Shown here: piece by piece, positions 7,865-50,728 of the stretch
Numbering within the stretch: the first letter of the stretch is position 1
Layout of the letters: each line of letters starts with the position of its first letter
DNA from: Streptomyces umbrinus
Lineage (GTDB): Bacteria > Actinomycetota > Actinomycetes > Streptomycetales > Streptomycetaceae
DNA length: 64,000 nucleotides
Direction of reading: 5' to 3'
Assembly (NCBI RefSeq): GCF_030817415.1
Contig: NZ_JAUSZI010000002.1
Coordinates: 1,798,001-1,862,000, forward strand
Notes under the pieces: generated by a model
Database searches by the model: none
Told to the model about the DNA's origin: nothing
What the model saw: only the letters and a program-made list of their open reading frames with translations
Program-made: the position numbers and the translations under genes

Positions 7865-7936
7865 TTGACGAACACGGCCCTTGAACCGGCCAAGCACCCC
7901 TACGACTTGCGCCATGCCGGCATCTCGTTCAGGTCG
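7865..7936 (+). pseudogene. Tyrosine integrase fragment A (box II region)
   Basis: A short in-frame stretch reads EPAKHPYDLRHAGISF, the box II (HxLRHA) context of actinomycete phage/ICE tyrosine recombinases, and then loses similarity. No N-terminal or C-terminal part of the integrase adjoins it. It lies 22 bp before a second, different integrase fragment in another frame, so it appears to be a relic. Confidence is limited by its length. Confidence 0.5.
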
Positions 7937-7958
7937 GCTTCGGCGTCGCCCCTGCAGA

Positions 7959-8230
7959 GTGCGCAAACTCGGCTACGAGCACCTGCGCCGCCACGACCTC
8001 CGGCACACCGGACTGACCTGGTTCGCCGACGCCGGAGTCCACGTGCACGTCCTCCGCAGGATCGCCGGCCACGGATCGCTGACCACCACCCAGCGCTACC
8101 TCCACCCGGACGTACACAAGATCACAGCCGCCGGCGCAGCGCGCTCCGCGCTCCCTGCCGAGCCCGATCGTCATGACCCGCTGACCCCGGTCAAGGACGC
8201 CAGTCCCCAACTGGTCCCCAAGAATGACCA
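7959..8230 (+). pseudogene. Tyrosine integrase fragment B (C-terminal catalytic part)
   Basis: From a GTG at 7959 the frame gives HLRRHDLRHTGLTWFADAG, then RRIAGHGSLTTTQRYLHPD. These are box II Arg/His, the second His-x-x-(G) position and the catalytic Tyr of a tyrosine recombinase. The first catalytic Arg and the core-binding domain are missing, so it cannot be active. The reading frame runs on through a hairpin and ends only inside the antisense of the tRNA-Pro gene (8318). An integrase 3' end against the 3' end of a tRNA is the usual arrangement of an integrated element, so this marks an old attachment site. Confidence 0.7.
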
Positions 8231-8264
8231 AGGGCCGGTTTCGGATGCCTCCGAAACCGGCCCT
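8231..8264 (-). terminator. Hairpin terminator of tRNA-Pro
   Basis: Perfect 15-bp inverted repeat (8231-8245 with 8250-8264) and a TGCC loop, 20 nt beyond the tRNA 3' end. It is not followed by a T-run, as is usual in Streptomyces, and could act in both directions. Confidence 0.8.
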
Positions 8265-8284
8265 GACCTGCGACTGTCTCCAGT

Positions 8285-8357
<73 letters not shown>

Positions 8358-8489: not shown

Positions 8490-9368
8490 TCAGTCGACGA
8501 ACAGGCCCCGTGCCGCCGCCCTCGTGTCGAACTCCTCCAGGCGGGCCTGGGCGTCGGGCAGGGCGTCGCACATCGCTTCCAGGAGGACCTGGCCGAGGAG
8601 CATGGGGGCGCTCACCGTGTCGAAGACCAGGTCGGTGCCGACGGCGGCCGGCAGGAGCAGGTCGCTGTGGGCGGCGACCGGGGCGAAGGTGCCGTCGGCG
8701 ATCGTCACCACGGTCAGTCCCGTCGCGCGGGCGTGGTCGAGTGCGTCCAGGAGCTCGGCCGGGTGGCGCGGAAGGGCGAAGCACATGAGGGCGCTCGCAC
8801 CGGCGTTCTTGGCCATGTCGATGCGGTCGGCGAGCCGTGAGCCTCCCTCGTCGAGGAGACGCACGTCCGGGTGGACCTTGGCCGCGAAGTACGCGAAGCC
8901 GCGGGCCTGGGCCGCGGAGGCACGCAGCCCGAGCACCGGCAGAGGCCGCGAGGCGGCCAGCAGCCGTCCCGCGCGTTCCACGGGCCCGGCATCGGCGAGC
9001 AGGGAGGCGAGTTGGAGCAGGTGGTGGATCTCGGCCCGTACCGCCTGCTGGTACGGGTTGGCCGGCCGCGCGTCCACGGACGGCCCGGCCGGTGCCACGT
9101 CCCGCAGGTGCCTGCGCAGGGCCGGGTATCCGTCGAAGCCGAGGGCGACCGCGAAGCGGGTCACCGACGGCTGGCTCACGCCTGCCAGTTGGGCCAGTTC
9201 CACGCTCGACAGGAAGGGTGCGGCCGCGGTCTGCCGGACCAGACAGTGGGCGATCCGGCGCTGCGTGGGCGTCAGCCGGCGCCCCTCGAACAACTGGTGC
9301 AGCCGCGCGGGCTCGACAGCCCCCTGAGGTGCGTCGACACCGACGCCGGCCCCTTCCGTGTCGGTCAC
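8490..9368 (-). CDS. MurR/RpiR-family transcriptional regulator
   Basis: Regulator of 292 aa with an N-terminal HTH_6 domain (about residues 25-100: LTPTQRRIAHCL, LAQLAGVSQPSVTRFAVALGFDGY) and a C-terminal SIS domain (about 140-270: RLLAASRPLPVLGLRASAAQ, AGASALMCFALPRHPAE) that in this family senses a phosphosugar or related metabolite. The GTG at 9368 is chosen because GGAGGGGG precedes it; a longer frame upstream has no such site. It follows the betaine-transporter operon in the same direction behind a hairpin, and is the obvious candidate regulator for that transporter and the divergent catabolic genes. The ligand is unknown. Confidence 0.88.
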   Translation of the reverse strand: MTDTEGAGVGVDAPQGAVEPARLHQLFEGRRLTPTQRRIAHCLVRQTAAAPFLSSVELAQLAGVSQPSVTRFAVALGFDGYPALRRHLRDVAPAGPSVDARPANPYQQAVRAEIHHLLQLASLLADAGPVERAGRLLAASRPLPVLGLRASAAQARGFAYFAAKVHPDVRLLDEGGSRLADRIDMAKNAGASALMCFALPRHPAELLDALDHARATGLTVVTIADGTFAPVAAHSDLLLPAAVGTDLVFDTVSAPMLLGQVLLEAMCDALPDAQARLEEFDTRAAARGLFVD

Positions 9369-9439
9369 CCTGGTCCCCCTCCCTGCCGCGCGCGTACCGG
9401 ACTCGTTGCCGGTCCTGTCTGACTCCCCACCGGGGGTTA

Positions 9440-9472
9440 CCGGACCGTCCACACACATTGCGGACGGTCCGG
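9440..9472 (-). terminator. Hairpin terminator after the betaine-binding protein gene
   Basis: Perfect 11-bp inverted repeat (9440-9450 with 9462-9472) with an 11-nt loop, 13 nt after the substrate-binding-protein stop. It separates the transporter operon from the RpiR gene. Confidence 0.7.
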
Positions 9473-9485
9473 GCGACCGTCGGCG

Positions 9486-10427
9486 TCAGCCGGCGAGACC
9501 GGCGTTCGTCAGCCACTCCTTGGCGACGTCGGAGGCGTCCTCCTTGTCGTTGACGAGCTTCTTCATCATCTCCAGCAGGTCCTCGGTGGTGAGCTTGGCC
9601 GAGAGGGCGTTGAGGGCCGCCTTGGCCTTGTCGTCGACCGCGGCCTTGTAGACGAGGGGGGTGACGTTCTGCGAGGAGAAGAGGTTCTTCGGGTCCTCCA
9701 GGACGACCAGCTTGTCCTCGACGATGGCGGGGTCGGTCGTGTACAGGTTGGCGGCCTGCACCTTGTTGTCCTTCAGCAGCTTCAGCAAGGTGCTCTGGGC
9801 GCCCGCGTCCAGCGGCTGGAACTTCCCGAACTCGACGCCGTAGACCGTCTTCAGACCGACACCGCCCTGCGTGCGGGTCTTGAACTCCGAGCCGGCACCT
9901 ATGGTCATGTCCTTGGCGACCGGCTTCAGGTCGGCCAGGGTCTTGAGGTTGTGCTTGGCGGCGGTCTCGGAGGTGACCGTGACCGAGTCCTTGTCCTCGG
10001 CCGCGGCGGAGTCGAGTATCTCCACGGACTTCGGGAGCTTCGCCTTCAGCTCGGCGTTGATCTCCTCCGTGCTGGTGGCGGTGCTCTTCTTGTCGACCGC
10101 GACGGACAGCAGCGCGCCGTTGTACTCGGGGAAGACACCTATGCCGCCCTTGACCACCTGGTCGTAGTACACCTCGCGGGCACCGATGTCGAACTTGCGG
10201 GTCACTTTCAGGCCCTTGTCCTCCAGGGCCTGGGCGTAGATCTCGGCGAGGAGCTGGTTCTCGGGGAAGTTGGCCGAGCCGACGACGATGGATTTGCCGC
10301 CTCCGCTGTCCCCGCTGCTGCCCGTCAGCGGGTTGTCGTCGCTGTCGTCGCCTCCTCCGCAGGCGGTCAGGGCGAACGCGGTGACGAGGCCGAACGCGGT
10401 GGCGCGAACGATGGCTTTGGCTTTCAT
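9486..10427 (-). CDS. OpuC/ProX-type betaine ABC transporter substrate-binding lipoprotein
   Basis: Extracytoplasmic binding protein of 313 aa. A lipoprotein signal ends in the lipobox LTAC (about residues 20-23), followed by a Gly/Ser/Asp linker and an OpuAC domain (VVGSANFPENQLLAEIYAQ, VKGGIGVFPEYNG, AANLYTTDPAI). Family knowledge: these proteins bind quaternary ammonium compounds such as glycine betaine, choline or carnitine, and a related system (EgtU) binds ergothioneine. It is last in the transporter operon, 83 nt after the second permease, with a strong AAAGGA site. The divergent amino-acid-lyase genes argue for a catabolic rather than purely osmoprotective substrate; that is inference. 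Confidence 0.92.
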   Translation of the reverse strand: MKAKAIVRATAFGLVTAFALTACGGGDDSDDNPLTGSSGDSGGGKSIVVGSANFPENQLLAEIYAQALEDKGLKVTRKFDIGAREVYYDQVVKGGIGVFPEYNGALLSVAVDKKSTATSTEEINAELKAKLPKSVEILDSAAAEDKDSVTVTSETAAKHNLKTLADLKPVAKDMTIGAGSEFKTRTQGGVGLKTVYGVEFGKFQPLDAGAQSTLLKLLKDNKVQAANLYTTDPAIVEDKLVVLEDPKNLFSSQNVTPLVYKAAVDDKAKAALNALSAKLTTEDLLEMMKKLVNDKEDASDVAKEWLTNAGLAG

Positions 10428-10510
10428 GGGTGTTTCCTTTCTTGGGAGCCCTCAGGAGCTCTCGGGGCCTTCAGGAGCGTGGGAGCTCGGAAAATCAGGA
10501 ACTCGGGACA

Positions 10511-11200
10511 TCAGGACTTGGTCGCCGAAGGCTGCAGCCCCGGCGAGACGACGAGGCGCCGCAGCGCGGTGAAGACGGCCTGGACGACGAGCGCCAGCAT
10601 GACGACGACGGCGGAGCCGCCGATGACCAGTTCGTAGTTGTTGCGGGCGAGTCCGTCGACGATGAAGCGCCCCAGACCGCCGAGACCGGGGTACGCGGCG
10701 ACGGTCGCCGTGGCCACGACCTGGATCGCGGCGACCCGCAGCCCGAGCAGGATCAGCGGCAGCGCCATCGGCACCTCGACCTTCAGCAGGACCTCCCAGC
10801 CGGTCATGCCCATCCCGCGCGCCGCGTCCCTGGTGTCGGGGTCGACTCCGCGTACGCCCTCGAAGGTGTTGATGAGGATCGGCGGGACCGCCAGCGCGAC
10901 CAGGGCGACCAGCACCGGCGTGGTGCTCAGCCCGGCGACCGTGACGACGAGGACGACCAGGCCGAAGGTGGGGATCGCGCGCGCGAGGTTCGCCACGCTC
11001 GCGACGGCGAACGCGCCCCGGCCGGTGTGCCCGACCAGCAGTCCGAACGTCAGCCCGATCAGGGTGGCGAACACCAGCGATATGCCGCTGTAGGTCAGAT
11101 GCTCCGCGAGCCGGTGGGGGATGCCGTCGTCACCGCTCCACTGCTGGGACGACGTCAGCCAGTCGCCCACGAGCTCGACCTGGTTCAGGAAGTCGTTCAC
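10511..11200 (-). CDS. OpuC-type ABC transporter permease (second)
   Basis: Membrane component of the betaine importer, 229 aa, with about five hydrophobic helices (ISLVFATLIGLTFGLLVG, FGLVVLVVTVAGLS, ELVIGGSAVVVMLALVVQA) and the EAA-like loop DTRDAARGMGMTGWEVLLKVEVPMALP that contacts the ATPase. The GTG start (VNDFLNQ) overlaps the stop of the preceding permease by 4 nt (GTGA). OpuC systems normally have two different permeases, and this is the second. Confidence 0.92.
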   Translation of the reverse strand: MNDFLNQVELVGDWLTSSQQWSGDDGIPHRLAEHLTYSGISLVFATLIGLTFGLLVGHTGRGAFAVASVANLARAIPTFGLVVLVVTVAGLSTTPVLVALVALAVPPILINTFEGVRGVDPDTRDAARGMGMTGWEVLLKVEVPMALPLILLGLRVAAIQVVATATVAAYPGLGGLGRFIVDGLARNNYELVIGGSAVVVMLALVVQAVFTALRRLVVSPGLQPSATKS

Positions 11201-11862
11201 GCCGTCGCCCCCTTGCCGCGCGCCCATGGTGTGAGCAGCCGCTGTGCCAGCACGAGCAGTGCGTCGGTGACGAGGGCCAGCAGCATGATCAGTACGGTCG
11301 CGGTGATGATCGGGGTCGGGAAGTCGAGCTGGAGTCCGCGGGTGATGTAGTAGCCGAGGCCGCCCTGTCCGATCAGCTGCCCCACGGCGACGAGGCTGAT
11401 GGACGAGACGGCGGCGACCCGGACGCCGGCCACGACGACGGGCACGGCGATCGGCAGCTCCACCTGGACGACACGGCGTACCGTGCTGAATCCCATGGCG
11501 GTGGCCGCCTGCCGTACCGGTTCGGGGACCGAGGCCAGTCCGTCCACGACGTTGGGAATGAGCACCGACAGCGTGTAGAGCGTCAGCGGAATCATCACCG
11601 TGCGTTCGGTCAGACCCGTGTAGCGCACGAAGATCATGAACAGGGCCAGCGACGGGATCGAGTACAGCACGTTGGCCGCGGTGAGGGTCGGCGGGTAGAT
11701 CCACCGCCACCGGTGGCAGAGGATGCCGAGCGGCACGGAGATGATCAGCCCGAACAGCACCGGCAGGAGTCCGAGCCGCAGATGGACGCCGGTGTAGTCG
11801 GCCAGCTCGCCGATGTGATCGCCGATCCAGTCCCAGCGTATGAGGGGTTCGCCGTCTCTCAT
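11197..11862 (-). CDS. OpuC-type ABC transporter permease (first)
   Basis: Permease of 221 aa with about five transmembrane segments (LGLLPVLFGLIISVPLGIL, LYSIPSLALFMIFV, IITATVLIMLLALVTDALLV). The EAA loop reads EPVRQAATAMGFSTVRRVVQVELPIAVP. It overlaps the ATPase gene by 4 nt upstream and the second permease by 4 nt downstream, so the three are translated as one coupled unit. The Gly-rich GQGGLGYYI segment near the C-terminus is typical of betaine permeases. Confidence 0.92.
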   Translation of the reverse strand: MRDGEPLIRWDWIGDHIGELADYTGVHLRLGLLPVLFGLIISVPLGILCHRWRWIYPPTLTAANVLYSIPSLALFMIFVRYTGLTERTVMIPLTLYTLSVLIPNVVDGLASVPEPVRQAATAMGFSTVRRVVQVELPIAVPVVVAGVRVAAVSSISLVAVGQLIGQGGLGYYITRGLQLDFPTPIITATVLIMLLALVTDALLVLAQRLLTPWARGKGATA

Positions 11863-13223
11863 CGCCCGTCACCGCCCGAACCCGAGCCCGCTCCGTCGGC
11901 ATCGCCGCCGCTGCCGCCGACCGTTTCGTCCTTGGCGACCGGCACCTTGGACACCGAGTCCTCGGCGGTCGCCGCGTCGGCCGACTCGGCGCCGGAGGTC
12001 TCCGCGCCAGCCGTCTCCGTGCCGACCGTCCCCGCGCCGGTCGCCGCCGCCTCGGCAGTCTCCGCTTCAGTCGTCTCCACTTGGGCCGTCCCGGGTGCGG
12101 CCGTCGCCTCCTCGGCCGCCGCGTCACCGACAGCGCCGTCCCCGGTCATCGCCGCGGACAGTTCGTACGCGTCCGCGACCCCGACGACCGCGCCCTGGGG
12201 GTCCACACCCACCGCGAGCCGCGACGGCGACAGCAGGGCCGCGTCGAGGGCGGCCCGTGCCGAGTCGCCGGCCAGGCTGAACGTGTGGCCGAGGGGGGTC
12301 AGCGCGGCGTCCGCGAGCGTGCCGCCGGCCGGCAGGTCGGCGACCGCGGCCCAGCCGAGCGGACGCCGGTCCCCGTCGACGACGAGCACCCAGGGTTCGC
12401 CCGCCGCTCGGGCCCGGGCCACCGGGGAGTCGGCCGGCAGGACCAGCCCCTCCCGCAGCGGCAGATCGGCCGCCTTGACGAAGGACAGACGGCGGATGCC
12501 ACGGTCCTGGCCGACGAAATCGGCCACGAAGTCGTCGGCGGGATGCGCGAGCAGCCGCTCCGGGGTGTCGAACTGCGCCAGCTTGCCCCCGGTGCGGAAC
12601 ACGGCGATGTTGTCGCCGAGCTTGATCGCCTCGTCGATGTCATGGGTGACGAACACGATCGTCTTGTGCAGCTCCTTCTGCAGCCGGATGAACTCCGCCT
12701 GCAGTTCCCCCCGGACGATGGGGTCGACCGCGCTGAACGGCTCGTCCATCAGCAGCACCGGCGGGTCCGCGCCCAGCGCTCTGGCCACTCCGACGCGCTG
12801 CTGCTGCCCGCCGGAGAGCTGGTACGGATAGCGCTTGGCCATGGAGGCCGGCAGCCCCACGAGCTCCAGCAGCTCCGCCGCCCGCGAGCGCGCCTTCTTC
12901 TTGCCCCAGCCGAGCAGCAGCGGCACGGTGGCTATGTTGTCCAGCACCGTGCGGTGCGGGAACAGCCCCGCGTGCTGGATCACATAGCCGATGCCCCGGC
13001 GCAGCTCCGGGGCGGCGATCTCCCGGATGTCCTGGCCGCGCAGGCTCACCGTGCCGGCCGTCGGCTCGACCATGCGGTTGACCATGCGCAACGTCGTGGT
13101 CTTGCCGCAGCCGGAAGGGCCGACCAGGACCGTGATGCCGCCCTCCGCCAACTCCAGCGACAGCTCGTCCACGGCTGTCGTGCCGTTGGGATAGTTTTTG
13201 CTCACCGCGTCGAATCTGATCAA
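11859..13223 (-). CDS. OpuC/ProV-type ABC transporter ATPase with CBS region and acidic tail
   Basis: ATPase of 454 aa driving betaine import. It has Walker A GPSGCGKTT (about residues 35-43), signature LSGGQQQR, Walker B VLLMDEPFSAVDP and the switch His in FVTHD. Residues about 240-370 form a CBS-like region, which in related OpuA proteins responds to ionic strength. The last about 90 residues are a low-complexity Ala/Thr/Glu/Gly tail rich in TAEA and GAETAG-like units, not part of the family core. It is first in the operon; its ATG faces the divergent cyclodeaminase gene 119 bp away. Confidence 0.92.
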   Translation of the reverse strand: MIRFDAVSKNYPNGTTAVDELSLELAEGGITVLVGPSGCGKTTTLRMVNRMVEPTAGTVSLRGQDIREIAAPELRRGIGYVIQHAGLFPHRTVLDNIATVPLLLGWGKKKARSRAAELLELVGLPASMAKRYPYQLSGGQQQRVGVARALGADPPVLLMDEPFSAVDPIVRGELQAEFIRLQKELHKTIVFVTHDIDEAIKLGDNIAVFRTGGKLAQFDTPERLLAHPADDFVADFVGQDRGIRRLSFVKAADLPLREGLVLPADSPVARARAAGEPWVLVVDGDRRPLGWAAVADLPAGGTLADAALTPLGHTFSLAGDSARAALDAALLSPSRLAVGVDPQGAVVGVADAYELSAAMTGDGAVGDAAAEEATAAPGTAQVETTEAETAEAAATGAGTVGTETAGAETSGAESADAATAEDSVSKVPVAKDETVGGSGGDADGAGSGSGGDGR

Positions 13224-13342
13224 AGCTGCCCCTTACCCGACTGCATATGGTCATGCAGAGTTGTGTGTGGCTGAATTACAGTCAATCCCCTTTTGTAAAC
13301 GGCACGTTACGTTCGTCCGAAGAAAGTGAAAGGGCGCCCGAA
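13224..13342. promoter_or_regulatory. Divergent promoter between betaine transporter and lyase operons
   Basis: A 119-bp intergenic region serving two divergent operons and locally AT-richer (around 13264-13312). AAAGGG at 13329-13334 is the ribosome binding site of the cyclodeaminase homologue. No clear long palindrome was seen. It is the natural target for the RpiR regulator at 8490-9368, by inference. Confidence 0.4.
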
Positions 13343-14353
13343 ATGCAGGCGTTTGACCCGGTTTGGTTCACGTTCCTGAACGGCTCGGACATCGAACAGC
13401 TCGAACTTGACGACACCGAGGTGCTCGACGCCGTCGAGCAGGGGCTGCATGCTCAGGGCCGCGGGGAAACGGTGATCGAACCACGGGTCCACCTCACGCC
13501 CGATCCCTCGTTCAACGGCCACTTCAACGTCCTGCGCGGCTATATCGCGCCACTGGGGCTGGCCGGAGTCAAGATTGTGGGCGACTACGTCGGCAACTAC
13601 AAGGCCGGACTGCCCTCCGAGATGGCGCTGCTCAACCTCTTCGACCCGCGTACGGGCATGCCGGTGGCCGTGGTCGACGCCACCGCCATCACCGAGATGC
13701 GCACCGGCGCGCTCACCGCGCTCGGGGCGCGCCATCTGGCCCGCCCCGGTTCCAAGGTGCTCGGCCACATCGGCGCCCGCGCCACCTCCTACTGGAACGT
13801 CCGCCTGCTCGACCGGATCTTCGACTTCGACGAGATACGTGTCCACTCGCGCCGCTCGGAGAGCCGTGAGGCCTTCGCCGAGCGCCTGGAGAACGACCTC
13901 GGCAAGCCCGTGACCGTCACCGACGACTGGAAGACCTGTGTCGAGGGCGCGGACATCGTCGTGGAGGCGTCCCGGCTGGAACGGCCCGAGCCCCTGCTGA
14001 GGACGGAGTGGATCGCGCCGGGAGCGCTTGTCGTACCGTACGGAACGATGAGCGCGGTCGAACTCTCCCTCACCGACATCATGGACAAGGTCGTCGTCGA
14101 CGACTGGGGCCAGTGCCGGTCCGGGCCGTTCGGTGCCCTGCGCGCGCATGTCGAGTCGGGGCGGCTCAGCGAGGAGACCCTGCACGGCGAGCTGTGCGAG
14201 ATCGTCGTCGGCGACAAGCCCGGCCGTGAGCGCGACGACGAGACCATCCTGTTCTGGCATCGCGGCCTCTCGTTGTCCGACATCGCGCTGGGCGCGGCCA
14301 TGCTCAAGAAGGCCGAAGAACGTGGCCTCGGGCAGAACCTGCGGTTCTCATGA
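13343..14353 (+). CDS. Ornithine cyclodeaminase / mu-crystallin family protein
   Basis: NAD(P)-binding enzyme of 336 aa. The family includes ornithine cyclodeaminase, alanine dehydrogenase and ketimine/pyrroline reductases. It has the family core VDATAITEMRTGALTALGARHLA (about residues 110-132) and a Rossmann loop GHIGARATSYWN, slightly different from the usual GxGxQA, followed by an acidic/basic strand EIRVHSRR. The ATG at 13343 follows AAAGGG; in-frame codons further upstream lack support. It overlaps the lyase gene by 4 nt. In this setting it may reduce or deaminate an intermediate of the amino-acid-derived substrate; the exact reaction cannot be told from sequence. Confidence 0.85.
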   Translation: MQAFDPVWFTFLNGSDIEQLELDDTEVLDAVEQGLHAQGRGETVIEPRVHLTPDPSFNGHFNVLRGYIAPLGLAGVKIVGDYVGNYKAGLPSEMALLNLFDPRTGMPVAVVDATAITEMRTGALTALGARHLARPGSKVLGHIGARATSYWNVRLLDRIFDFDEIRVHSRRSESREAFAERLENDLGKPVTVTDDWKTCVEGADIVVEASRLERPEPLLRTEWIAPGALVVPYGTMSAVELSLTDIMDKVVVDDWGQCRSGPFGALRAHVESGRLSEETLHGELCEIVVGDKPGRERDDETILFWHRGLSLSDIALGAAMLKKAEERGLGQNLRFS

Positions 14354-15915
14354 GCGGTACGCCTCCCGCTCCTACCCCACCCGTCGCGGCTGACGCCGTG
14401 GTCCTCGACGGGAGCGCCCTCACCTGCGACGACGTCGCCGCCGTCGCACTCCGCGGCGCCCGGGTCGCCCTGGCCGAGGAGGTACTGCCCCGGCTGGAGC
14501 GCGACCGCGCGGTCGTCGACGACGTGGTCGACCGTGAGGTGCCGACGTACGGCCTGACGACGGGGCTCGGCAGCCGGTCCTCGTACGCGCTGCCGCGGGC
14601 CGAACTCGGCGAGTTCAGCGTGCGCACGGTGCGGGGACGGGCCAACGCGGTGGGCGATCCGCTGCCGGTCCCCGTCGTACGCGCCGCCCTGCTGACCCGG
14701 GTGAACGGCATCGCGGGCGGCGGCAGCGGGGTGCGGCCGGAGATCGTGCCGCTGCTGGTCTCCATGCTCAACTCACGGGTGCACCCGGTGATCCCCGAGG
14801 TGGGGTCGATCGGCGCCTCCGACCTGTGCCAGATGGCCCATGTCGGCCTGGTCGTCATCGGCGAGGGCCGTGCCGAGGTCTCCGGTGAGGCTCTCGACGG
14901 TGCGCAGGCACTGCGGCGGGCCGGGCTGGCCCCCGCCGAACTGGGGCCGAAGGACGGGCATGTGCTGTGCAGCGCGAGCCCGCTGGCCGCCGGTGCCGGC
15001 GCCCTCGCCCTCCACGAGGCGGCCGCCGTCCTCACCCTCGCCCAGGCGGTCACGGCGCTCACCTTCGAGGGGTTCCGGGCGAACACGAGCCCGCTCGACA
15101 GCCGCGTACTGGGCCTGCGTCCGGCCCCCGGCCAGGCCCGGGCGGCGGCCGAACTGCTCGCCCTGCTGGACGGCGGCGAGCTGGCGGATCCCCGGCACGC
15201 GAGGCGCGTCCAGGACCCCGTGAGCCTGCGCTGTGCCGCCCAGGTGCACGGGGCGTTGCACTCCGCCCTGGACTTCGCCCTCGCCGCACTGGAACCCGAA
15301 CTCAACGGCTGCGGCGACAACCCGGTGGTCCTGGCCGACACCGGGGAGATCCTCTCGTCCGGGAACTTCCACACCCCGGCCCTGGCCCTCGGCTTCGACA
15401 CCGTCGCGCTGGCCCTGACACAGACCGCGGCGATCTCCGCCGAGCGCATGCGGCGACTGCTGAATCCCGCTGTCAGCGGACTGCCCGCGAACCTCTCGCC
15501 GTACGGTCCGGAGCGTTCGGGCTTCGCGCCGCTGGCCAAGACGGCACAGGCACTCGTCGCCGAGATCCGTGCCCTGTCCGCGCCCGTGTGCACCGACCCC
15601 CGGCACGGCGCGGACGCGGTCGAGGACGACTCGACCAACGCGGCGCTCGGCGCGCGACGGCTGACGACGATGCTGGTCAGGCTGCGGCAACTGCTCGCCG
15701 TGGAGGCCCTGGCCGCGGCACAGGCCGTGGACCTGGCGGCCCCGGCCACCATGGGACGGGGGCCCGGTCTCCTGCACCGCGCGATCCGCGAGCTGGTCCC
15801 GCGCCTGGACGACGACCGGCCCTGCGGAGTGGACGTGGACCTGGTGAGCCGGGACGTCCTGGGGTCCGACGAGGTACGAAGCGCTCTGCACGCTTTGGTG
15901 GAAGGACCTTCGTGA
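14350..15915 (+). CDS. Histidine/aromatic ammonia-lyase family protein with atypical MIO triad
   Basis: 521 aa, the usual length of a histidine ammonia-lyase. Recognisable family segments are YGLTTGLG (residues about 73-80), GGGSGVRPEIVPLL, VQDPVSLRCAAQVHGAL, NGCGDNPV, SSGNFHTPALALGF and ERMRRLLNPAVSGLP. Family knowledge: the MIO cofactor forms from Ala-Ser-Gly in GSxGASGDLAPLAH. Here I read GSIGASDLCQMAH, so Ala156-Ser157 is followed by Asp158 and one Gly is missing. The histidase SHAAG motif is replaced by RGRANAVG and YSLRC by VSLRC. It is therefore a divergent lyase, or possibly has lost ammonia-lyase chemistry. It is coupled by 4-nt overlaps to the genes on both sides. Confidence 0.85.
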   Translation: MSGTPPAPTPPVAADAVVLDGSALTCDDVAAVALRGARVALAEEVLPRLERDRAVVDDVVDREVPTYGLTTGLGSRSSYALPRAELGEFSVRTVRGRANAVGDPLPVPVVRAALLTRVNGIAGGGSGVRPEIVPLLVSMLNSRVHPVIPEVGSIGASDLCQMAHVGLVVIGEGRAEVSGEALDGAQALRRAGLAPAELGPKDGHVLCSASPLAAGAGALALHEAAAVLTLAQAVTALTFEGFRANTSPLDSRVLGLRPAPGQARAAAELLALLDGGELADPRHARRVQDPVSLRCAAQVHGALHSALDFALAALEPELNGCGDNPVVLADTGEILSSGNFHTPALALGFDTVALALTQTAAISAERMRRLLNPAVSGLPANLSPYGPERSGFAPLAKTAQALVAEIRALSAPVCTDPRHGADAVEDDSTNAALGARRLTTMLVRLRQLLAVEALAAAQAVDLAAPATMGRGPGLLHRAIRELVPRLDDDRPCGVDVDLVSRDVLGSDEVRSALHALVEGPS

Positions 15916-16817
15916 CCAACGTCGACGTACACCAGCATCTGTGGACCGCCTCGTTCCTCGCGGCCCTCCGCGCGCGTGACGAGCCGCCGTTCCTTGACGG
16001 CTGGACCCTGCACACGGCCGGTGAGCCGCCCTACGAGGTCCCGGCCGCCCAGCACGATGTGGCCGCGCGTGCCGAACGGGCCGCCGCCGACGGGCTCGGC
16101 AGAGCGCTCGTCTCACTGTCCGCCCCGCTCGGCATCGAGTGGCTGCCGTCCGACGAGGCACGCCCCCTGCTCGCCGCCTACCACCAGGACGCGGCAGGCC
16201 TGCCCGAGCCGTTCGGGGCCTGGGCCGCCGCCTGCGTCCGGGACATCGACGCCGACGCGACCGCCGCGGACCTCGCCCGCGGGTTCGCCGGGCTCCAGCT
16301 CCCGGCGAACGCCCTGACCGACGAGGCGGGGTACGCGCGCTGCGCCCCGCTGCTCGATCTGCTCGAAGCGCGCGGCCTCCCGCTGTTCGTCCACCCCGGC
16401 CCGGCGCCCGGTGCGTCGCCAGGGCCCGGCTGGTGGCCCGCGATGGTGCCGTACGTGCAGCAGATGCACTCCGCTTGGTTCGCCTTCCGGGCGTTCGGCC
16501 GGCCTCGTCATCCCCGGCTGCGGGTGTGCTTCGCGCTGCTGGCCGGGCTCGCCCCGCTGCACGGGGAGCGCTTCGCCGCACGTGGCGGGGCCGAGGGGCA
16601 CGCGGGGGTCGACCCCGATGTGTTCGTCGAGACGTCCTCGTACGGTCCGCGTGCCGTCGACTCGGTCGTCCGCGTCCTCGGTACCGACGTCGTCGTGATG
16701 GGCTCGGACCGGCCCTACGCGGAACCGCCGCAGCAGCCCGGCTTCGGCCTGGGCGGAGCCACCGCGTACGCCTTCCGCATCACCAATCCACGCCGCCTGC
16801 TCACCGGAGAGGACTGA
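15912..16817 (+). CDS. Amidohydrolase-family (TIM-barrel) hydrolase
   Basis: 301 aa, amidohydrolase_2-like. The N-terminal metal motif is VDVHQHLW (HxH, residues about 4-11), a later metal-ligand strand reads LFVHPG (about 158-163), and a C-terminal Asp lies in VMGSDRPY (about 262). This is the ligand set of metal-dependent C-N or C-C hydrolases/decarboxylases. The GTG start overlaps the lyase stop by 4 nt (GTGA), so it is a coupled member of the operon. It probably acts on the product of the lyase, for example opening a ring or cleaving an amide; the substrate is not known. Confidence 0.85.
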   Translation: MTNVDVHQHLWTASFLAALRARDEPPFLDGWTLHTAGEPPYEVPAAQHDVAARAERAAADGLGRALVSLSAPLGIEWLPSDEARPLLAAYHQDAAGLPEPFGAWAAACVRDIDADATAADLARGFAGLQLPANALTDEAGYARCAPLLDLLEARGLPLFVHPGPAPGASPGPGWWPAMVPYVQQMHSAWFAFRAFGRPRHPRLRVCFALLAGLAPLHGERFAARGGAEGHAGVDPDVFVETSSYGPRAVDSVVRVLGTDVVVMGSDRPYAEPPQQPGFGLGGATAYAFRITNPRRLLTGED

Positions 16818-16878
16818 CCGCGCCCGACGGCCACCCGTGGCCGTCGTCCAACACGCAACCGGCACCAGGGGGATGACC

Positions 16879-17416
16879 ATGAACCCGACCCCGATCGACA
16901 CGACCGCGCTCGCCGAACTCGGCGCGTCCGACCGGCCGTTCCGGCCCGAGGAGTGCGCGGACCGGGCCCGCCGGGCCGCGGCGTTCGTCGACACCGCCCG
17001 CGCTCGACCGCTCCGGTCCCGGCTCGTATCTGCTGCTGTGGCGGAACGCGAACTCCGAGGCGTGGCTGAACACTTGGTGGCAGTCGCGCGACACCGGCTA
17101 CCACGACCATCAGGGGTCCTGCGTCGGCGTGCACGTGATCGAAGGCGCCGCCTGGCAGGAGGGACTGCCGGTGGGCGGCCCGCGTCGCACCCGCAGGTAC
17201 GGGCCCGGCGAGTCGTTCTCGTTCCCGGGTTCGGGCGTCCATCGGATGGACCACGACGCCGGCGCGGTGACCATCCACGTCTACTCGCCGCCGATCGAGG
17301 CCATCGGGCACTACGAGATCGTCGACGGCGAACTCCATCGCACGGCCGGGCCGCCCGACAAGGGCTCCCCGGCGAGTCCCCGGCTGCTCGACGCCCTCAA
17401 CTCGATCGGACGGTGA
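16879..17416 (+). pseudogene. Cysteine-dioxygenase-like cupin, frameshifted
   Basis: Two halves of one cupin gene lie in different frames. The first (from ATG 16879, after AGGGGG) reads to AAFVDTAR near 16999. The second resumes at 17003 with LDRSGPGSYLLLWRN, followed by the cupin metal motif GYHDHQGSCVGVHVIEG and PGSGVHRMDH, ending at 17416. A loss of 2 nt in the CGCGC run at 16999-17003 (or a gain of 1) explains the break. Family knowledge: such cupins are iron-dependent thiol dioxygenases. Position suggests it was the last gene of the lyase operon. Whether this is a true mutation or a sequencing error cannot be decided here. It is convergent with the YceI gene, 20 bp apart. Confidence 0.8.
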
Positions 17417-48027: not shown

Positions 48028-49446
48028 TCACGAAGCCACCCGCTCACCTCGCTCACCGATGTCGTCGGCGGCGTCGACATCGGCATCGGCACTGGTACGG
48101 GAATCGGGATGGGCCAGGCCCAGGTGGTCGCGCAGGGTCGTGCCCTCGTACTCCGTACGGAACACACCGCGCTCCTGGAGCAGCGGGACCACCGTGTCGG
48201 CGAAGGCGTCGAGGCCGCCGGGGGTGATGTGCGGGACGAGGATGAAGCCGTCGCTCGCGTCGGCCTGGACGAAGTCGTCGATGGTGGCCGCGACCGTGGC
48301 CGGGGAGCCGACGAAGGCCTGGCGGTTGCCGGTCTCGATGACCAGGTCGCGGATGGACCAGTTGTTGGCGGCCGCTCGCTCCCGCCACTCCCGGGCGGTG
48401 GCCAGCGGGTCGCGGTACATCCGGACCTGGGCCCGGCCGCGCGCGACGGTGTGCTCGCCGAGGTCGGGGTCGATGTCGGGCAGCGGGCCGTCGGGGTCGT
48501 ACGCGGACAGGTCGCGGTTCCAGACGAATTCCAGGTGCTTGATGGCGGTCGCCCCGCTGACCTGCTGCCGGCGCACCTCGCGGGCCAGCTCCTCCGCCTC
48601 GGCGTCGGTGTCGCCGAGGACGAAGGTCGCCGCGGGCAGGATCAGCAACTGGTCGGGCGTACGGCCGTAGCGGGCCAGGCGTCCCTTGACGTCCGTGTAG
48701 AACGCCTGGCCGTCCTTGAGGGTGGCGTACCGGCTGAAGATCGCGTCGGCGCCTGCGGCGGCGAACTCCCGGCCCTCCTCGGAGTCGCCGGCCTGGAAGA
48801 TCACCGGGCGGCCCTGTGGGGAGCGCGGGACGTTGAACTGCCCCTCGATGTCGAAGTGCCGGCCCTGGTGGACGAAGGCGCCGGCCTTCGCGTCGCGCAG
48901 GAAGGTGCCGGTGTCCTGGTCGGCGATGATCTCGTCGCCGTGCCAGGAGTCGAAGAGTTCGTTCGCGGTGGCCAGGAACTCCTTGGCCCGGGAGTAGCGC
49001 TCGTCCTGCGGGAGGAAGCCGCCGCGCCGGAAGTTCTCGCCGGTGAAGGCGTCCCAGGAGGTGACGACGTTCCAGGCGGCGCGCCCGTCCGAGAGGTGGT
49101 CGAGGCTGGCGAACTGCCGAGCTACTTCATAGGGCTCGTTGAAGGTGGAGTTGATGGTGCCGGTCAGGCCGAGGTGCTGGGTGACGGCGGCGAGCGCGGT
49201 GAGGACGGTGAAGGTGTCGGGGCGGCCGACGACGTCCAAGTCGTAGATCTTTCCGCCCTGTTCGCGCAGTCGCAGCCCTTCGGCGAGGAACAGGAAGTCG
49301 AACTTGGCGCGTTCGGCGGTCCGTGCGAAGTGCGCGAAGGAGCTGAACTCGATGTGGCTGCCGGCCTCCGGGGCGCTCCAGACGGTGGTGTTGTTGACGC
49401 CGGGGAAGTGGGCGGCCAGGTGGATCTGCTTCAGCGGCTTGCTCAT
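48028..49446 (-). CDS. LLM-class flavin-dependent monooxygenase (NtaA/SnaA/DszA family)
   Basis: 472 aa FMNH2-dependent monooxygenase with the luciferase-like barrel pattern IHLAAHFPGVNNTTVWSAPEAGSHIEFSSFAHFARTAERAKFDFLFLAEG, NVVTSWDAFTGENFRRGGFL and PVIFQAGDSEEGREFAA. The family degrades nitrilotriacetate, dibenzothiophene sulfone or related compounds, often to liberate sulfur. The ATG at 49446 is chosen over an in-frame Pro-rich extension. It lies 22 nt after the second LLM gene in one transcript that starts with a Cys-Cys leader peptide, so organosulfur oxidation for sulfur supply is the best guess. Confidence 0.9.
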   Translation of the reverse strand: MSKPLKQIHLAAHFPGVNNTTVWSAPEAGSHIEFSSFAHFARTAERAKFDFLFLAEGLRLREQGGKIYDLDVVGRPDTFTVLTALAAVTQHLGLTGTINSTFNEPYEVARQFASLDHLSDGRAAWNVVTSWDAFTGENFRRGGFLPQDERYSRAKEFLATANELFDSWHGDEIIADQDTGTFLRDAKAGAFVHQGRHFDIEGQFNVPRSPQGRPVIFQAGDSEEGREFAAAGADAIFSRYATLKDGQAFYTDVKGRLARYGRTPDQLLILPAATFVLGDTDAEAEELAREVRRQQVSGATAIKHLEFVWNRDLSAYDPDGPLPDIDPDLGEHTVARGRAQVRMYRDPLATAREWRERAAANNWSIRDLVIETGNRQAFVGSPATVAATIDDFVQADASDGFILVPHITPGGLDAFADTVVPLLQERGVFRTEYEGTTLRDHLGLAHPDSRTSADADVDAADDIGERGERVAS

Positions 49447-49468
49447 GGTCCTGCGGTCTCCGTCCGGC

Positions 49469-50728
49469 TCAGGCGGTGGCGTTGGCAGCGGCGTTGGCGT
49501 TGGCGGCAGCAGCGCCGGTGGCGTAGCGGTTGGGCGGGCGGGTGAGCCCGAGCAGTCCGCGCAGGGTGTCGGCCTCGTAGGCGCGGCGGAAGGCACCCCG
49601 GCGCTGGAGTTCGGGGACCAGTCCCTGGGTGATGGCGGGCAGGTCGTGGCCGAGGACGGCGGGGCGCAGCCGGAAGCCGCTCAGCCCGGCCGACCACAGC
49701 TCCTGGAGCAGGTCGGCGAGTTGGGCGGGTGTGCCGGTGAAGACGCGGGCGTCGCTGGTGAACGGCTCTCCCGCGAGGGCGTCGAGACGGTCCCTTCGGG
49801 CGGCCGCGGCGGCCGGATCGTCGTCGAGGAAGACCACCAGGTCCCCGAAGACGTGCAGAGGTTGGTCGGCGCGGCCCGCGAGGGCCTGCTCGGCGCGGAT
49901 CTCGGCGACGATCGCCCGGGCGTGGTCGGTGTCGTGCGGGGTGACGTAGCCGATGTCGGTGGCGCGGGCCACCAGCCGGTACGGGACGGTCTGGTGGGCG
50001 AGGGCGCTGACGACGGGCTGGCCCTGGGGCGGACGCGGGGTGATGGAGGGGCCCTTGACGCTGAAGCGCGGGCCCTCGAAGTCGATGTAGTGGAGCTTGT
50101 CGCGGTCGACGAAGCGGCCGGTGGTCACGTCCCGGATCTCGGCGTCGTCCTCCCAGCTGTCCCAGAGTCTGCGTACGACCTCGACGTAGTCGGCCGTCTC
50201 GTCGAAGAGTTCGGTCACCACGTCCTGGGTGGCCGGGCTGTCGTAGGCGTCCAGGCGGGGCAGCGTTCGGCGGCCGAAGTGCGCCGCCTCGTTCTGGCGT
50301 GCCGTCAACTGCACCCTCAAGCCCGCCCGGCCGGAACTCACATAGTCGAGGGTGGCGATGGCCTTGGAGATGTGGAACGGCTCCGTGTGCGTGGCCACCA
50401 CGGTCGGCACCAGACCTATGTGGCGGGTCAACGGGGCGACCCGGGCGGCGACGAGAACGGCGTCGAGCCGGCCGCGGACCTGGTCGGTCCGCCCGTCCGG
50501 CTCGATGAAGTGCGACGACTGCAGTCCGAGGCCGTCCTCGAAGGTCACGAAGTCGAGGAGACCGCGCTCGGCCTCGGCGACGAGGTCGGCCCAGTAACCG
50601 GCGGTGAACAGTTCCCGGGGCCGGGCCACCGGTTCGCGCCAGGCGGAGGGATGCCAGCCGGCGCCGTCGAGCGCCACGGCGAGGTGCAGATGCGCGGAGG
50701 AGGGCAGGGCAGAAGGTGCTGAGGACAC
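49469..50728 (-). CDS. LLM-class flavin-dependent monooxygenase
   Basis: 419 aa luciferase-like flavin monooxygenase (LHLAVALDGAGWHPSAWREP, LLDFVTFEDGLGLQ, ARVAPLTRHIGLVPTVVATHTEPFHISKAIATLDYVSSGRAGLRVQ). It differs clearly from its neighbour, so the pair may act on two substrates or in sequence. The GTG at 50728 follows GGAAGG. The last residues are a low-complexity Ala/Asn tail. First full gene after the leader peptide; a flavin reductase, needed by this class, is not in the window. Confidence 0.88.
   Translation of the reverse strand: MSSAPSALPSSAHLHLAVALDGAGWHPSAWREPVARPRELFTAGYWADLVAEAERGLLDFVTFEDGLGLQSSHFIEPDGRTDQVRGRLDAVLVAARVAPLTRHIGLVPTVVATHTEPFHISKAIATLDYVSSGRAGLRVQLTARQNEAAHFGRRTLPRLDAYDSPATQDVVTELFDETADYVEVVRRLWDSWEDDAEIRDVTTGRFVDRDKLHYIDFEGPRFSVKGPSITPRPPQGQPVVSALAHQTVPYRLVARATDIGYVTPHDTDHARAIVAEIRAEQALAGRADQPLHVFGDLVVFLDDDPAAAAARRDRLDALAGEPFTSDARVFTGTPAQLADLLQELWSAGLSGFRLRPAVLGHDLPAITQGLVPELQRRGAFRRAYEADTLRGLLGLTRPPNRYATGAAAANANAAANATA

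Follow-up and report, generated by a model that had tools for sequence, protein, structure and literature searches.

What is taken up and broken down by a Streptomyces operon in which an OpuC-type importer diverges from genes for an ornithine cyclodeaminase (OCD)/mu-crystallin-family enzyme, a lyase resembling histidine ammonia-lyase (HAL) and an amidohydrolase-like protein? We analysed this locus in Streptomyces umbrinus (source genome 12.4 Mb) within a window of 64,000 nucleotides, the whole stretch from position 1,798,001 to 1,862,000 of contig NZ_JAUSZI010000002.1. As an earlier note on this DNA had proposed, an RpiR regulator gene and the importer face overlapping OCD, lyase and amidohydrolase genes, each family being found where it had been placed; OCD and lyase overlap by four bases (14350-14353), as do lyase and amidohydrolase (15912-15915). 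The conserved gene set probably imports and dismantles an unusual histidine-derived molecule, which may be spent ergothioneine.

Linkage of importer, OCD and lyase genes

A contig scan gave 36 loci, one from Rhizobiales (L043) and 35 actinobacterial (34 Streptomyces and Actinobacteria bacterium OK074), the latter from 34 strains, L042 and L044 being two contigs of one strain's operon. A gene was counted as present when more than half of it aligned at an identity of at least 45%. On this measure the substrate-binding protein (SBP) was present in 30 of the 35 actinobacterial loci, each permease and the ATPase in 29, OCD in 26, the lyase in 32, the amidohydrolase in 29, the RpiR regulator in 15 and a cupin in 5. 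Importer, OCD and lyase were all present in 26 of the 35, a linkage that exceeds chance, and the genome neighbourhoods thereby bear out the conserved transporter-lyase linkage that had been claimed. Among the exceptions, L042 and L044 stop at contig ends, OCD is truncated in L013 and L042, only the C-terminus of the lyase lies beside an intact amidohydrolase in L045 and L046, and the lyase frame of L041 has a long insertion. Lyase and amidohydrolase are retained, with importer and OCD absent, in L032, L035, L040 and L041; a major facilitator superfamily gene is divergent from the lyase in L032, L040 (efflux_EmrB) and L041.

The OCD of the window scores 184.7 bits against PF02423 (cut-off 24; 2.7e-54), and no NCBIfam equivalog was found for it, the best scoring 183.8 against a cut-off of 409.15. 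Lys77 and Asp112 are common to the Archaeoglobus fulgidus alanine dehydrogenase 1omo. Eight further residues (H50, R65, E93, H142, R146, R211, H306, R307) are invariant in the 59 aligned OCD members having the site and differ from 1omo. OCD was found in 13 of 396 actinobacterial genomes. The 11 OCD loci outside Streptomyces had an adjoining lyase in 7 cases, importer parts in 9 and HutF/HutI/HutU-like genes in 5 (L080-L083, L085), where the HutF/HutI-like genes are 30-40% identical and the two tested were amidohydrolases only by Pfam. In the distant actinobacterial locus L081 an RpiR gene also adjoins OCD.

A MIO-less lyase and its association with OCD

HAL and its kin form the 4-methylideneimidazole-5-one (MIO) electrophile from Ala-Ser-Gly. 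This triad is absent from the window lyase, whose loop GSIGASDLCQMAH (GSIGASDL) is one residue shorter than the true-HAL loop GSVGASGDLAPLAH. The loop is one residue short in 17 of 21 aligned lyases, including that of the window and the ergothionase (ergothioneine trimethylamine-lyase) of Treponema denticola (6s7j); the four true HALs of this 21-row alignment retain ASG or CSG. Residue sites are given here in HAL numbering (Tyr53, His83, Asn195, Tyr280, Arg283, Glu414). The Tyr53, Arg283 and Glu414 sites are retained in the window lyase, the Asn195 site is Ser and the Tyr280 site is Val. His83, the imidazole-binding residue of HAL, is replaced by Arg97 in the alignments, and the imidazole-binding His of 6s7j is likewise not retained.

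The lyase scores 396.5 bits against the hutH equivalog TIGR01225, under the cut-off of 539.15. Ergothionase has no MIO, according to PMC13405746, and the window lyase equally combines the PF00221 fold with loss of MIO. The earlier prediction of a HAL-like lyase therefore stands, the HAL homologue being of the MIO-less, ergothionase-like kind. Going by sequence, these MIO-free HAL relatives cannot make MIO, and they form a clade in soil bacteria that is often annotated 'histidine ammonia-lyase'. In a PDB search with a profile of 13 lyases, ergothionase was the best match at 404.5 bits and the best HAL scored 383.2, PDB entries for HAL writing MIO as X. The closest of the named relatives of the window lyase is from Streptomyces phaeochromogenes (96%), and the lyase was found at E 1e-100 in 6 of 150 relatives, its own genome counted.

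In a tree of 37 rows (the partial row L084 left out), the window lyase belongs to a 12-member clade (support 100/99) that also holds lyases from rhizobia and other Alphaproteobacteria, and 11 of the 12 rows have Arg at the His83 site. The window lyase does not group with 6s7j, which is placed with L050, L053 and L058 (98/93), apart from this clade. Arg is also found in all seven OCD-linked lyases from Actinobacteria outside Streptomyces (L077, L078, L079, L081, L084, L085, L087); the triad Ser is missing from five of these, two have TSG or ASG, and all seven have Glu, not Asp, after the triad site. Three odd HAL-like proteins near OCD in the alphaproteobacterial L130 and L144 sit near these seven in the tree. 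As the alignments read, Arg at the His83 site goes with OCD in two separate groups, and exceptions exist. Other changes in the MIO loop (GMDGE, GGA-GE, GSAGE) occur in the HAL-like proteins at L130 13442-16524, L144 6280-7842 and L077-L087, hinting at further lineages without MIO.

Two more MIO-less lyases are encoded in the S. umbrinus genome. The second (GSVGTGDIAALAQ, His retained; L088 9118-14149, G000:C2:4966000-4985000) is transcribed divergently from a further OpuC-type importer, whose cage motifs are altered as well, and lies ~7.5 kb from the urocanase of the genome. The third (GSIGTGDLPALAV) is in L089 (G000:C2:450000-469000), close to a TPR protein sharing 48% identity with one that adjoins OCD in Paracoccus (L053).

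Outside the Actinobacteria, OCD orthologues were found in 84 of 72,556 plasmid records, 69 of the 84 from Rhizobium. We examined 13 of these 84 loci, picked for spread. A HAL-like gene lay in the stretch in 11 of them and in neither L055 nor L057; six of the 11 have an Arg-type MIO-less lyase, three an ergothionase-clade lyase (accompanied in L053 by a true HAL) and two a true HAL only. None of the Betaproteobacteria among the 13 (L050, L052, L057, L058) has an Arg-type lyase. OCD together with a MIO-less lyase is thus seen in Actinobacteria, Alphaproteobacteria and Betaproteobacteria, and the Arg type in only the first two. A PhnD/SsuA-like protein of ~270 aa (PF12974 in L047) occurs with OCD in most plasmid loci of L047-L057 and L059, with no match in L054 or L058; by eye it apparently has no signal peptide, which could make it an enzyme instead of a binding protein.

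Co-occurrence across whole genomes was analysed in a sample of 367 Alphaproteobacteria, of which 25 have OCD at E 1e-90 and 93 matched the lyase of L043. Typing covered the 30 top-ranking lyase places with loci (three interspersed places without a locus and all lower places were left out). The best 11 of the 30 lack MIO (Arg in 10, His in 1), and the remaining 19 are true HALs. All 11 MIO-less lyases lie in OCD genomes (1.3e-14, a p value that ignores relatedness and genome size; G150, the source of both queries, is counted among the 11 by construction). The lyase adjoins OCD in four of them (G150, G890, G886, G640) and is apart in seven. A HAL-like gene flanks only 6 of the 26 alphaproteobacterial OCD places, so the two are associated more through presence in the same genome than through proximity; other neighbours of OCD are peptide-type binding proteins, TctA-type transporters and a class IV aminotransferase.

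Urocanase was present in 21 of the 25 OCD genomes versus 71 of the 342 others (1.9e-10, again ignoring relatedness and genome size), and in 12 of the 14 OCD genomes without a typed MIO-less lyase. Near OCD itself, hut genes were found in L052, L053, L058, L085 and L146, and HutF/HutI-like amidohydrolases in L080-L083 and L131. These hut genes in relatives tie the system to urocanate and histidine catabolism, in support of the earlier note's reading. In the alphaproteobacterial G621 (L130, L146; 2.7 Mb) urocanase matched seven times, and the genome has two OCDs and an adjacent pair of odd HAL-like genes.

Candidate pathway and alternatives

Our leading, still tentative reading is that the operon imports and degrades an imidazole-containing member of the hercynine/ergothioneine family whose ring most likely bears an additional anionic group, as in ergothioneine-2-sulfonate. 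The OpuC-type importer would take up the imidazole betaine and RpiR would sense a product. In the MIO-less lyase the catalytic Tyr would remove the beta proton and trimethylamine would be expelled, with Arg97 holding the anionic ring substituent. The OCD-family enzyme would then finish the unsaturated acid with NAD(P)H. In the simplest form of this step hydride would attack C2 and sulfite would leave, yielding urocanate, which the ordinary urocanase pathway would carry to glutamate; the amidohydrolase would serve an accessory step. The sequences directly show the gene families, their linkage, the lost MIO triad, Arg in place of His and the co-occurrence of OCD with both the lyase and urocanase; from these we infer the substrate, the release of trimethylamine, what OCD catalyses and how Arg97 acts.

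Four hints meet in this proposal. The lyase would not need MIO because its leaving group is already quaternary, and a MIO-less lyase therefore suggests a betaine. The co-occurrence of urocanase suggests an imidazole skeleton. Arg where HAL and ergothionase retain His suggests an anionic ring group, and the sulfite/sulfate exporters near some relatives suggest a sulfonate: YeiH-type genes, whose products export sulfite, lie near the cluster in L043 (the one tested with Pfam), L047, L050 and L053, with identities of 30-48% except in L047, and L077 and L079 have a gene for a TauE sulfite exporter. Together these hints fit ergothioneine-2-sulfonate. The genome encodes one urocanase and EgtD. It had been argued that the route must be new, no urocanate-hydratase homologue being present; since the genome has a urocanase this argument fails, and three relatives carry a urocanase-like gene beside the operon (family tested for L012).

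A more specific proposal, which we regard as rather doubtful, is that the conserved OCD subfamily is the sulfur-releasing enzyme in a widespread recycling of oxidised ergothioneine: once the Arg-type lyase has taken trimethylamine from ergothioneine-2-sulfonate, OCD would reductively convert 2-sulfourocanate into sulfite and urocanate. If true, this would be a new reaction, the reductive C-S cleavage of an imidazole sulfonate, in a family known for C=N reduction. Lyase and OCD form a testable two-enzyme unit tied to urocanate breakdown, which may explain the fate of spent ergothioneine in soil bacteria and a source of environmental trimethylamine.

Several observations weigh against the ergothioneine-sulfonate reading. 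OCD-family proteins are not known from any experiment to carry out reductive desulfonation. Used alone, the window lyase matches HALs at 248 and 245 bits and ergothionase at 242.8, and its predicted model (predicted local distance difference test, pLDDT, 83.3) matches HAL, ergothionase and tyrosine aminomutase equally, so structure is not decisive. L133, a member of the window's own lyase clade, has His at the His83 site, and of the three odd proteins of L130 and L144 one has Arg, one His and one neither. In L052 and L056 OCD is accompanied by true HALs alone, and in L050, L053 and L058 by ergothionase-clade lyases in which His is retained; it is therefore not specific to Arg-type lyases, and 14 of the 25 alphaproteobacterial OCD genomes have no typed MIO-less lyase. 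YeiH, TauE and the PhnD-like protein had no match in the window or in the surroundings of the 35 actinobacterial loci.

The binding protein of the importer adds to these points. Its cage motifs differ from those of OpuC-type proteins, both in the window and in 30 of 30 actinobacterial loci with an SBP (NNxY to E/Q-D-K-D; PPYY to S/A-S-Q-N), and with AEDKDS and SSQNVTP the window SBP lacks the NxY and PPYY tyrosines of the glycine betaine/choline OpuC cage. The first motif is GSANF, without Lys, in the window and related loci (L046 is truncated there), and the actinobacterial SBPs have no Lys at the carboxylate-binding site as mapped through motifs. These changes count against glycine betaine and choline as ligands and, more weakly, against a betaine of any kind. 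The 'betaine-class importer' of the earlier note, altered in this way in the window and all 30 related loci, accordingly loses its value as evidence for a betaine. Eight SBPs of other actinobacterial loci have similar, not identical, motifs, and six distinct proteobacterial SBPs retain GSKNF, NNGY and PPY, but L043 and L047 have Ala at the fourth aromatic site. Of the 13 OpuAC matches in the genome, seven were compared (two aligned poorly, two were unreadable and L152 is the window's own). The OpuC-type SBP L150 retains NNTY, and L151, beside the second MIO-less lyase, has AEDSDA and PGQHIVP. A profile of the SBPs fits acetylcholine/nicotine-sensor precursors and ProX better than EgtUC. The signature residues of EgtU are Gly244 and Phe293 according to PMC9732360; by motif-based mapping the window SBP has Phe and Tyr at the aligned GSANF and PEYNG. 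Judged by these signature residues and motifs, it is neither an EgtU nor a typical glycine betaine/choline binder.

How do other substrates fare on the same evidence? Hercynine (histidine betaine) would be turned directly into urocanate by the lyase, leaving OCD an unrelated side job. EgtD in the genome suggests that hercynine is made, a urocanase is present and the lyase is MIO-less, but we consider this substrate unlikely: the strict co-occurrence of lyase and OCD would go unexplained, and the His83 site is Arg, whereas true HALs and ergothionase retain His. Ergothioneine itself, degraded via thiourocanate, would suit the profile search, in which ergothionase is the nearest solved relative, the ergothionase-clade lyases near the same OCD and the thiol-dioxygenase-type cupin of some relatives. 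It appears quite improbable given that the HutU of L012 is a urocanate hydratase by score, well under the thiourocanate hydratase cut-off, that Arg replaces His in the lyase and that the SBP lacks Gly244/Phe293, the EgtU signature of PMC9732360. The Arg-for-His change, as far as the alignments tell, argues against plain ergothioneine and plain hercynine alike.

Another (hetero)aromatic betaine, such as tryptophan or tyrosine betaine, seems very unlikely. Its acrylate would be degraded by CoA-dependent steps, and R. johnstonii 3841 does have CoA-transferase, short-chain dehydrogenase/reductase and MaoC genes directly upstream of hutC and the lyase; however, among the 13 plasmid loci a single one had CoA-transferase and MaoC matches, hut genes recurring instead, and there were none in the 35 actinobacterial loci or the window. 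The actinobacterial system might, with little probability, handle a non-betaine, the lyase expelling another leaving group and the importer binding a different cation. This would account for the replacement of NNxY and PPYY in the window SBP and its counterparts at 30 related loci, with a similar change in L151 (L150 keeps NNTY), but proteobacterial clusters with an orthologous OCD retain NNGY and PPY (six SBPs, with the exception at the fourth aromatic site given above), and the shared chemistry is more likely to be betaine chemistry. It is highly improbable that the operon makes a natural product rather than degrading one: MIO enzymes and OCDs are found in Streptomyces biosynthesis, but importer and RpiR are linked here, hut genes occur in relatives, and no operon gene matches a biosynthetic core family.

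Locus layout and known systems

The features of the locus are collected in Table 1. Comparison with orthologues makes the ATG at 13343 the likely start of OCD. The amidohydrolase-like protein has no match in Pfam or NCBIfam; it resembles ACMSD by PDB sequence match only (1.9e-4 alone; a weak 5.2e-7 as a profile), and its model (pLDDT 47.3) is unusable, although the HxH is invariant among relatives.

Table 1 Features of the S. umbrinus locus, in window coordinates.
Feature	Position	Strand	Basis or remark
RpiR/MurR-family regulator, PF01418 (1.2e-11)	8490..9458	-	family match
OpuAC-type SBP, PF04069 (2.7e-49), altered cage motifs GSANF, PEYNGA, AEDKDS, NLYTTD, SSQNVTP	9486..10427	-	
ABC permease BPD_transp_1, GTG start	10511..11200	-	family match
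ABC permease BPD_transp_1	11197..11862	-	family match
ABC ATPase, proV-like, TIGR01186 303.5 bits vs cut-off 326.6	11859..13223	-	
Divergent intergenic region between importer and catabolic operon	13224..13342	.	gene ends, and OCD start inferred from orthologues
OCD/mu-crystallin-family enzyme, OCD_Mu_crystall PF02423	13343..14353	+	open reading frame opens at 13247
MIO-less HAL-like lyase, Lyase_aromatic PF00221 (2.4e-133)	14350..15915	+	
Arg97 codon of lyase, at HAL His83 site	14638..14640	+	alignments
Degenerate MIO loop GSIGASDLCQMAH of lyase	14803..14841	+	alignment
Amidohydrolase-like protein, ACMSD-like, GTG start, invariant HxH near N-terminus	15912..16817	+	
Cysteine-dioxygenase-type cupin, broken by frameshift	16873..17416	+	split between two frames

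The cupin, for which the earlier note had suggested a thiol-dioxygenase role, is not supported as a functional member of the operon. Its frame is broken in the window, with a one-base length difference from L011, L012 and L014, and it is linked in only the 5 of 35 related loci where it is full-length (L011, L012, L014, L024, L039). The C-terminal piece alone scores 20.6 bits against CDO_I (PF05995), below the gathering cut-off of 23, and the intact L012 orthologue scores 28.9; the window cupin thus has neither the gathering score nor the intact frame of a thiol dioxygenase. In L012, L024 and L039 the amidohydrolase is followed by a second module of urocanate-hydratase-like, GntR regulator, 3-hydroxyacyl-CoA-dehydrogenase-like, second MIO-less lyase and full-length cupin genes. 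The lyase of this module has GSIGQADL and retains His in the two aligned copies (L012, L024), and the L012 urocanase scores 693.7 against a hutU cut-off of 375 and 535 against a thiourocanate hydratase cut-off of 930. The window, L011 and L014 retain only the cupin of this module, so the window cupin is probably a remnant of it.

Adjoining the operon, a tRNA-Pro gene (8283-8357, minus strand) overlaps a short phage-integrase-family fragment (7881-8318, plus strand; PF00589, 3.6e-9), which may mark where a mobile element integrates. At 48097-50689 on the minus strand, ~31 kb from the operon, lie two matches to LLM-type flavin oxidoreductases (37% and 31%); the queries were the pair adjoining OCD in R. 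acidisoli and Sinorhizobium.

Among known systems, the OCD/mu-crystallin family (alanine dehydrogenase, ketimine reductases) shares PF02423 and, as in 1omo, Lys77 and Asp112, but the window OCD falls in a subfamily of its own, under every NCBIfam equivalog cut-off. The HAL/hut pathway has a lyase of the same superfamily and hut genes adjoin OCD in several relatives; it differs in that the window lyase has no MIO triad and is changed at the His83 and Asn195 sites. The closest parallel is the T. denticola ergothionase (6s7j), with the same PF00221 fold, catalytic Tyr, triad lost through a loop one residue shorter, Ser at the Asn195 site, loss of the Tyr280 site and retention of the Arg283 and Glu414 sites (HAL numbering). 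The two nevertheless share only ~30% identity and belong to separate tree clades, and the window lyase has Arg at the His83 site and is linked to OCD and an amidohydrolase. The EgtU importer has a binding protein of the same OpuAC family, but the window SBP is without the Gly244 and Phe293 given in PMC9732360, as far as motif-based mapping of the sites goes. In the literature searched we found no description of the actinobacterial version, of the tie to OCD or of the Arg-type MIO-less clade. A bacterial ergothioneine sulfonate catabolic pathway has been published by Yan, Huang and Zhang (2022, ACS Catal 12:4825), which PMC13405746 cites for the ergothionase of Agrobacterium radiobacter. Rhizobium carries the OCD-lyase-OpuC cluster and, as far as that citation goes, the published pathway may well be the pathway of the cluster described here.

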